Shown here piece by piece: positions 50,677 to 53,079 of a stretch of DNA of 64,000 nt. Source of the DNA: Alkaliphilus serpentinus (GTDB lineage: Bacteria > Bacillota > Clostridia > Peptostreptococcales > Natronincolaceae); the NCBI RefSeq assembly GCF_009017255.1, contig NZ_WBZB01000039.1:1-64000 (forward strand), given 5' to 3'. The position numbers and the translations under genes were made by a program. Each line of letters begins with the position of its first letter. Position 1 is the first letter of the stretch. The notes under the pieces were generated by a model. It had not been told where the DNA came from and searched no databases. It saw nothing but the letters and a program-made list of their open reading frames with translations.

Positions 50677-51444
50677 CTATTCCATCATCATAATCCCTAA
50701 GGCCTTAAAGGTTTCATAGGTAATGTTGGGGTTTTTACGAATTCCGTGATCCTCTTGAAATTTATAAAGGGCCTGCTCCATTCCCGGACCATATTTACCA
50801 TCAAGATAATCATAATTATAATAGCCCAGAATCTGTAATCTTCGTTGTACCTCCATAACATCAGAGCCAAAATCACCAGGTTGAATGGTATTTAACCCAT
50901 ATCCAAAGGGCCCATAGGCACCATTAACTATGGCCACTGGGGTTCCTACCTTCACGTAGGTATATAAATCTTCCACATCCCTATTATTCATTCTAATACA
51001 TCCCCCAGAAGCATTGTAGCCTATTGAATTGGGTTTGTTGGTTCCATGTATACCGTATTTACCCCAGGGTACGTTGATGCCCATCCACCGGGTTCCAAAG
51101 CCTCCACCCCATTTGGCTTTATTAATTACCTTCCAAGAGCCTATAGGGGAGGGTGTATCAATTTTACCACTGGCAACGTTGTATCTTTTTATAACAGCAT
51201 TACCGTTTAATAGATAGAGCTTCTTTTCTGCTATATCAATAAGAATTTTTAAATCTTCATAGTTGGGATTGTTTATTAACATTTGGTTTTCCCATTGCAT
51301 GTACTCATTAAAAACCTTTTCTGCCCCTACTGAAACTTTATGATTAAATATATTATAGCCAGCAGTAATAACTACAGTTAGACATAATATTAAAATAAAT
51401 AGTTTAATAGATCCTTTTATAGTAAACAACCCCATCCCCCCCAT
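50677..51444 (-). CDS. L,D-transpeptidase (YkuD) with peptidoglycan-binding domain
   Basis: The 255-residue wall enzyme forms 3-3 crosslinks in peptidoglycan outside the cell. It has an N-terminal anchor (about 9-28), a YkuD domain (about 60-175) with the signature HGTNKPNSIGYNASGGCIRM containing the catalytic Cys, and a C-terminal PG_binding_1 repeat (about 190-250; VMEVQRRLQILGYYNYDYLDG). The start is uncertain: ATG at 51444 lacks an RBS, while a TTG at 51429 lies 6 bases after a run of seven G. Confidence 0.92.
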   Translation of the reverse strand: MGGMGLFTIKGSIKLFILILCLTVVITAGYNIFNHKVSVGAEKVFNEYMQWENQMLINNPNYEDLKILIDIAEKKLYLLNGNAVIKRYNVASGKIDTPSPIGSWKVINKAKWGGGFGTRWMGINVPWGKYGIHGTNKPNSIGYNASGGCIRMNNRDVEDLYTYVKVGTPVAIVNGAYGPFGYGLNTIQPGDFGSDVMEVQRRLQILGYYNYDYLDGKYGPGMEQALYKFQEDHGIRKNPNITYETFKALGIMMME

Positions 51445-51569: not shown

Positions 51570-53018
51570 TTAATTTTGTTTTATCAATGAAAAACTCAGG
51601 CTGTAGTAGGTTTTTGTAGCTTTTTCTTCTGGAATCAGTATATGGGACTGAATTACTTTATAGCCTGAATAGTCAGTAACACATGTAAAGGTGATGCCTG
51701 CCTCTTCAAAACAAAAATCCTTAAAAGTGTTCTTTTCAATTTCCTCCCCTATTCGCCTTGGAAGTTTAGAAAATAAACCTATTTCCTCCTGGGCACCAGC
51801 GAAAGCAAGGGATACTAGAAACATTTGCTTGTCATATGAATAAAGCCATTTATCATTATTCGTGATTTCAATTTCAAAAGAAACTCCCTTCACATATCCG
51901 TTTGCAATTGTAAAATGATACTTTGGCTTTTCAGTATCTTGGATTTCAATATGGGTCCTTCCGTCAAAATCCTTTTTCACCCATTTTCCATCTTTATTTA
52001 AGTATTTATTGCCAAAGTTAATACCAAAAAACTCAGCATAATAATTGTGGTTCTCAACAAATTCTGCTACAGTCAAATTCCCTCGGTTGGGAGGAAGTTG
52101 CTGTGCGGAGGTTACTGTAAGCAAAAAAGCTATTGCAACTGCATGTGCACCAATATAAAACACACCTCGGTACCATTTGGTGTCTTTAAGAGTATAAGAT
52201 ACTTCCTCATCCCATGGTTGGGTTTCTTTCTCATTACACAGCTTATAGCTTTTCAAAAGACAAATTAAGTTATAGATTGGAATATTGTAACCCATCCCAG
52301 TACCTATAACACTCCAAGTTCTTTCTAATCCCTCAGCATAAGATAGTGGCCTACCATCAGGATTCTCAATTCTAAGTCCTAAAAGGGCCTTTCCCGGAGT
52401 AGTCCCCAACATATGGAGCCAGAAGGGTTCTATAAACAACATGATAGCAATTGATATGAAGGAATCAAGTGAGTTCTCAAAATTACCTCTAGTAGCCAAA
52501 TTAACATCAAATACCAATGCAAGTAAAGCCATCCAAAGAGTATTGTACATAAAGATGTCGAAGATTCTAGCTAAAAATCTACGCCATGGATGAAATACCT
52601 GTGGAAGCTCATCCCCTTTGATAGAAAAATATCCACTGTCTGTTCCTTTCATTGATTCCTTGATACAATTCAGATATTTCTTAGCATCCAAATCAGCAAA
52701 GGTTACCCATTCTCCCTGCATAGCCCGGCACACATCCTGCGCATAAGAAGCATCTTTCTTTTCTTGATCTAGTTTGACAATTTGCTTGGAAAGAGTGTCT
52801 AGCAAATCCTTACTTCCTTCTTTTAGGGCTTTAATTTCCTCTAAGGATATATGCAGGCTCCGTAAAAGTTTAATACGTAATAAAATTTGTAGATCATTCT
52901 GAGAATAATCTCTATATCCGTTATCCATGCGTTTTGGTGTAATGAGGCCCTCACGTTCATAAAATCTAATATTTCCTCGTTCCATCCCTGATAGCATTTC
53001 AACTTCTTTTATTGTCAT
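51570..53018 (-). CDS. Membrane-bound regulator: MerR HTH fused to RDD membrane domain
   Basis: The 482-residue protein has three parts. Residues 1-70 are a MerR HTH (MTIKEVEMLSGMERGNIRFY, REGLITPKRMDNGYRDY), followed by a helical stretch to about 105. Residues 143-270 form an RDD membrane domain (HPWRRFLARIFDIFMYNTLW, LGTTPGKALLGLRI) with another helix at 288-303. Residues 304-482 form an extracytoplasmic domain with no recognised family. DNA-binding and sensing parts are thus in one membrane protein. RBS AAGGAGG, and its own MerR-type promoter lies upstream. Target genes beyond itself are unknown. Confidence 0.88.
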   Translation of the reverse strand: MTIKEVEMLSGMERGNIRFYEREGLITPKRMDNGYRDYSQNDLQILLRIKLLRSLHISLEEIKALKEGSKDLLDTLSKQIVKLDQEKKDASYAQDVCRAMQGEWVTFADLDAKKYLNCIKESMKGTDSGYFSIKGDELPQVFHPWRRFLARIFDIFMYNTLWMALLALVFDVNLATRGNFENSLDSFISIAIMLFIEPFWLHMLGTTPGKALLGLRIENPDGRPLSYAEGLERTWSVIGTGMGYNIPIYNLICLLKSYKLCNEKETQPWDEEVSYTLKDTKWYRGVFYIGAHAVAIAFLLTVTSAQQLPPNRGNLTVAEFVENHNYYAEFFGINFGNKYLNKDGKWVKKDFDGRTHIEIQDTEKPKYHFTIANGYVKGVSFEIEITNNDKWLYSYDKQMFLVSLAFAGAQEEIGLFSKLPRRIGEEIEKNTFKDFCFEEAGITFTCVTDYSGYKVIQSHILIPEEKATKTYYSLSFSLIKQN

Positions 53019-53048
53019 ATCCGTCCTCCTTTACGATTTGTTGTCTTA

Positions 53049-53079
53049 ATAATAAACTATAAAGTCTGTTTATAGTCAA
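53049..53079 (-). promoter_or_regulatory. MerR-type promoter with 19-bp spacer and palindrome
   Basis: TTGACT (53074-53079) and TATTAT (53049-53054) are separated by 19 bp on the minus strand, longer than the usual 17. The spacer region holds ACTATAAA-CAGAC-TTTATAGT (53056-53076), a perfect 8-bp-arm palindrome. This is exactly the twisted-promoter design recognised by MerR activators, 31 bp upstream of the MerR-RDD gene, so autoregulation is strongly suggested. Confidence 0.85.

Follow-up and report, generated by a model that had tools for sequence, protein, structure and literature searches.

MerR proteins stand in textbooks as soluble regulators. They repress and then activate promoters with spacers of 19–20 bp by distorting the DNA, and in a recent review of the family the term "membrane" occurs 0 times and no membrane forms are described (PMC9909328). 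In TipA, sensor, activator and neutraliser are combined in one autoregulated gene, a "minimal autoregulated system" (PMC7762955).

Here, we analyzed a 482-residue protein encoded in the window, that is, the whole stretch of 64,000 nucleotides of Alkaliphilus serpentinus DNA under study. In common with TipA and AlbA, it has a MerR domain fused to a C-terminal module; TipA is autoregulated and described as a one-gene system (PMC7762955). However, TipA is soluble, carries a drug-binding domain and has a second, short product, whereas here an RDD membrane domain is followed by an unrelated C-terminal domain; no Pfam match to the TipAS/AlbA drug-binding domain was found in the 482 residues, where RDD is present instead. 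The MerR_1 profile and a 19-bp spacer with a palindrome are shared with activators of the CueR/BmrR type, which, in contrast, are soluble and usually act on a resistance gene, while no neighbour is conserved here. With regard to ToxR/CadC-like regulators, the resemblance lies in a DNA-binding domain, a membrane part and a probable outside domain in one protein. Nevertheless, the protein does not belong to that class, whose members have a winged helix of the OmpR/PhoB type and cross the membrane once; Pfam and hydropathy instead give MerR as the DNA-binding domain and, as the membrane part, a polytopic RDD domain with at least three transmembrane (TM) segments. Two open-access papers on these regulators make no mention of a MerR version. 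Finally, the RDD Pfam domain also occurs in an antiporter of Halobacillus andaensis, which is a stand-alone three-TM protein with no DNA-binding or C-terminal domain described (PMC5996927).

MerR, RDD and a C-terminal module lie in a single polypeptide

The open reading frame has an ATG start, an AGGAGG ribosome site and no internal stops (Table 1). As the original prediction held, MerR and RDD lie in one protein, and the Pfam matches for both are well above the curated cut-offs: MerR_1 (PF13411) with E=1.2e-17 and 64.1 bits against a cut-off of 21.6, and RDD (PF06271) with E=1.4e-12 and 48.6 bits against 24.1. PF00376 also exceeded its cut-off (33.8 versus 28.2 bits), and phmmer matched the MerR domain to CueR structures with E=1.3e-07. 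Residues 1–70, whose fit to a MerR profile had been named as decisive, thus match well over positions 1–65. An alignment showed the conserved RDD residues to be present (Arg in RRFLAR, Asp in IFD and Asp in PWD), and this is the only RDD domain in the source genome.

For the C-terminal part of about 176 residues, no credible family match was obtained in Pfam, NCBIfam or PDB. Members of this domain gave chance-level matches only against Pfam and NCBIfam, and a profile built from 14 relatives and searched against PDB chains had its best match, at E 0.37, with an unrelated protein. Predicted folds were of low confidence, both for the whole protein (pLDDT 40) and for the C-terminal domain alone (pLDDT 38).

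Table 1. Features of the MerR-RDD locus, with positions in the window.
Feature	Position	Strand	Evidence
CDS, 482-aa MerR-RDD-C-terminal-domain protein	51570..53018	-	ORF, Pfam, full-length homologues L002-L007, L104
MerR DNA-binding domain, residues 1-65	52824..53018	-	Pfam PF13411; phmmer to CueR structures
Predicted dimerisation helix and linker, residues 66-142	52593..52823	-	Matches with other MerR proteins that have a membrane anchor
RDD membrane domain, residues 143-269 (TM1 152-170, TM2 187-205)	52212..52592	-	Pfam PF06271, hydropathy
Last clear TM segment, residues 285-303	52110..52166	-	Hydropathy
C-terminal domain, residues 307-482, acidic in homologues	51573..52100	-	Charge, alignment
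Promoter TTGACT-ATAAACAGACTTTATAGTT (19 bp)-TATTAT	53049..53079	-	Conserved in L002, L003, L004, L006, L104; unique in genome
Predicted MerR operator, perfect 8-5-8 palindrome ACTATAAA-CAGAC-TTTATAGT within spacer	53056..53076	.	Paired changes across homologues

The fused gene recurs in other genomes without conserved neighbours

Seven full-length fused homologues were found in other genomes, with identities of 33–74%: 74% in the metagenome-assembled genome BRH_c20a, 63% in G016 and G287, 53% in G130, 46% in G136, 43% in G163 and 33% in G782. Intact fusions in several genomes rule out a join of two genes by sequencing error, and the single gene that had been predicted is therefore real. No further full-length relative was present in 399 genomes sampled across the phylum, so that the family seems for the most part restricted to the order of the source genome. 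Viral contigs gave no match to the protein, and plasmids none covering most of it.

Comparison of eight neighbourhoods of 11–20 kb revealed no recurring neighbour gene family. The exceptions were genes common to G136 and G163, which are closely related, and one of Sir2 type that lies near the gene in the window and in G782 but in no other genome of the set; distant matches were also seen among ubiquitous ABC and kinase-like families. We rejected an operon with either the L,D-transpeptidase downstream or the acetyltransferase upstream, the neighbours not being conserved, and the gene appears to move by itself. The L,D-transpeptidase (YkuD, with a peptidoglycan-binding domain; 50677–51444, minus strand) lies just downstream on the same strand and is not conserved beside the homologues.

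Topology of the membrane part

Hydropathy gave three clear TM segments (Table 1) and a marginal one at residues 235–255 (KD 0.4–1.3; Wimley-White octanol −1.9 to −8.3). The C-terminal domain was predicted to be extracytoplasmic; charge and hydropathy support this, but the marginal segment, if it crossed the membrane, would place the C-terminus inside and so reverse the location. Such a four-TM arrangement, in which a membrane-associated regulator would sense an internal ligand, is compatible with every other reading considered below. In two DnaJ-RDD proteins, the stretch equivalent to 235–255 reaches a TM-level score; against this, the K/R-rich loop at 256–284 (+3 to +7) disfavours placing that loop outside, and a strongly acidic C-terminal domain, as in the homologues (e.g., +9/−28 and +11/−31; +21/−24 in the window protein), is expected of an outside domain. 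We therefore regard a cytoplasmic C-terminus as unlikely and favour three TM segments with the C-terminal domain probably outside, on the basis of positive-inside counts and acidity.

The RDD–C-terminal module also occurs without MerR

At 11 loci (L008–L018), the RDD and C-terminal module was found, whole or partial; those copies with a complete start begin shortly ahead of the PWRR motif and carry no MerR domain. In a tree of the RDD part, MerR-free and fused proteins were intermixed, a pattern that may reflect one or several fusions or losses. As the module exists MerR-free, it has a job not needing MerR, and it is chiefly for this reason that we read it as an effector as well as a sensor. 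Conversely, L019 is a MerR-RDD protein without the C-terminal domain, which argues that RDD can suffice for signal entry. The proposal that sensor, membrane part and DNA binding share one autoregulated polypeptide is borne out for the fusion and for a promoter linked to the gene; the C-terminal domain is a candidate sensor. In other families of the phylum, RDD is fused to an N-terminal J-domain that is DnaJ-like by motif (L033, L034 and L036).

The stand-alone module fits another explanation, namely an RDD cation/H+ antiporter with a built-in repressor/activator, in which the transported ion would be the signal and transport the output. This would agree with the Na+(Li+,K+)/H+ antiport reported for the RDD protein of Halobacillus andaensis (PMC5996927), but it rests on that single report and not on a family-wide function, and it leaves the extra C-terminal domain unexplained. 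Moreover, the third family aspartate, essential in the Halobacillus protein, is D in the seven aligned MerR fusions, whereas several of the stand-alone relatives have N or E at this position. We consider this explanation improbable.

A MerR-type promoter is conserved together with the gene

A MerR-type promoter lies directly upstream, 30 bp from the ATG, and is conserved together with the gene. Its 19-bp spacer and perfect 8-5-8 palindrome were found as predicted, the strongest evidence being their conservation in five other genomes. By themselves, perfect 8-5-8 palindromes are only mildly in excess in the window (6 versus 2.1 expected in shuffles); inside a TTGA...19 bp...TANNNT frame, however, none arose in any of 60 dinucleotide-shuffled versions of this sequence. 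The frame is kept upstream of six of the eight genes (the window gene, L002, L003, L004, L006 and L104), even for homologues of only 33% and 46% identity, and in the latter five it sits 52–80 bp ahead of the ATG while the surrounding sequence diverges. No MerR promoter was recognisable upstream of the remaining two, L007 and the L005 operon, where the gene is directly 3' of a methyltransferase gene.

With respect to the palindrome itself, A/T-to-G/C changes occur on both arms, as seen in ACTATAAA/TTTATAGT of the window compared to ACTGTAAA/TTTACAGT of L002, and two of the eight pairs are altered on both sides among the six sequences. In this set, 97.9% of the palindrome cells are paired, compared to 21–46% when the register is slid by 1–3 bases. 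A shuffle test of the paired changes gave values as high in 42 of 500 shuffles; since this is modest support at six sequences, the argument depends chiefly on the conservation of the position and of the sequence.

The gene's own promoter is the only recognisable site

Further target sites were sought with the 31-bp promoter pattern, allowing up to 3 mismatches, and with the reversed pattern as a control; sites differing at more than 3 specified bases escape this search. Exactly one site was found in the 3.29-Mb source genome (G000), at this gene, and one per genome in G016, G287, G136, G694 and G782, each upstream of the homologue. The control gave 0 sites in these six genomes, except for one chance match in G694. 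A shorter, looser pattern matched at the control rate with no excess, and shorter palindrome matches elsewhere in the source genome were discarded, those on C3 and C32 being within coding frames and that on C31 having no promoter frame. Across the order, the 31-bp pattern also matches other MerR genes, two of them with 0 mismatches; as it occurs, even without a mismatch, at unrelated MerR genes in G098 and G187, where the MerR-RDD protein was not found, it is partly a generic MerR layout.

Genome G278, whose MerR-RDD genes are without the C-terminal domain, holds two sites. One immediately precedes a MerR-RDD copy that is damaged (L088, about 1011–1883), which has in-frame stops in the MerR part and a conserved operator and may be a decayed paralogue or an assembly error. 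The other, with three mismatches, precedes a MerR gene that is truncated where the contig ends.

The original prediction had left the target genes unknown; in the absence of a second site genome-wide, the own gene is the sole recognisable target, and the protein looks like a regulon of one rather than a regulator with unknown targets. A predicted own-promoter site that is unique in the genome would fit the autoregulated one-gene arrangement of the TipA class. Two explanations compete over this result. A classical membrane one-component regulator would sense through the RDD–C-terminal module and would control, through differing sites, unlinked targets besides its own gene. In its favour, the targets of most MerR proteins are other genes, the sites may differ between promoters and, in the same genome, the MerR protein L131 has a 19-bp-spacer promoter before a divergent MATE pump. 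Nevertheless, the finding of just one site per genome at up to 3 mismatches in six genomes, the background level of the looser pattern and the lack of a conserved neighbour argue against it, and we hold it to be rather unlikely, though a serious alternative. The second explanation is homeostatic self-repression, with MerR on its own promoter fixing the level of a housekeeping membrane protein with no sensed ligand. A sole recognisable site and the absence of partner genes fit this as well, but a spacer of 19 bp, as conserved here, is the arrangement of MerR promoters that can be activated (PMC9909328), which makes it very improbable.

Other membrane-anchored MerR proteins

Several types of membrane MerR protein are common in the same order: MerR-2TM, MerR-DUF1648 (L084), MerR-5TM-tail (L091) and MerR-7TM (L095). 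Proteins of about 217 aa with a two-TM hairpin occur in many genomes of family f10 (examples are L020–L028, L089 and L108, at about 1501–2154), and no Pfam family above cut-off was assigned to this hairpin. Most of these two-TM proteins have their own 19-bp-spacer promoter with a CCTTCC...GGAAGG palindrome; it was seen directly upstream in at least nine of them, compared to 0–5% of cases with such a frame in shuffled sequence.

These proteins resemble the MerR-RDD protein in that a related MerR and linker module precedes the TM part; individual matches span residues 1–126 to 1–140, and the resemblance extends through the linker to about residue 138, just ahead of the membrane part. Their membrane modules and operators, in contrast, are different. 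The MerR-linker tree was poorly resolved, with some very long branches. The source genome has seven MerR genes, which include a second membrane protein of 242 aa with two TM segments (L130; G000:C22:2980-3186) and a protein of about 350 aa with its own 19-bp-spacer promoter TTGACTCTGCCCCTGGGGCAGGGTTTATTAT (L127; 658–1710).

Concerning the claim of an unusual, poorly described design, a search of the open-access literature found no description of MerR-RDD or membrane-tethered MerR proteins. Membrane anchoring as such, however, is less unusual than claimed, because membrane MerR proteins are common in related bacteria and several have their own MerR-type promoter.

Proposed mechanism and implications

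The explanation that we prefer, to which we give an even chance, is a self-contained, autoregulated membrane-bound MerR system with its own gene as main target, that is, TipA-like logic placed in the membrane. In a more far-reaching form, which we put forward tentatively and somewhat short of even, the membrane protein would be its own complete circuit, in which a MerR switch and a membrane effector or sensor have their own promoter as sole target and the protein multiplies itself on signal; more broadly, it would represent an undescribed class of tethered MerR proteins that join related MerR-linker parts to varied membrane modules under autogenous control.

We infer recognition of the DNA site and all later steps of the mechanism as follows. 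The MerR halves would dimerise at the membrane face and keep the 19-bp-spacer promoter repressed. In ToxR and CadC the promoter comes to the membrane, and it would have to do so here for an RDD-held dimer. A signal, which may be an ion, a compound that acts on the envelope or a stress on the membrane, would reach the RDD or the C-terminal module and alter the MerR dimer, so that the spacer is twisted and the gene activated. The product would be both sensor and response, with the RDD–C-terminal module doing a useful job such as transport, binding or envelope protection. Given a single recognisable site, the likely output would be further synthesis of the protein itself, in the manner of TipA.

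The MerR regulator described here is thus a membrane-bound, one-gene and apparently self-targeted form. A membrane-bound MerR protein touching its own promoter tests whether a transmembrane signal can drive DNA distortion. Furthermore, the fixed operator and the single target make a very simple reporter for ligand finding, and would provide a testable function for the RDD family, which is poorly characterised, and for the unnamed C-terminal domain.
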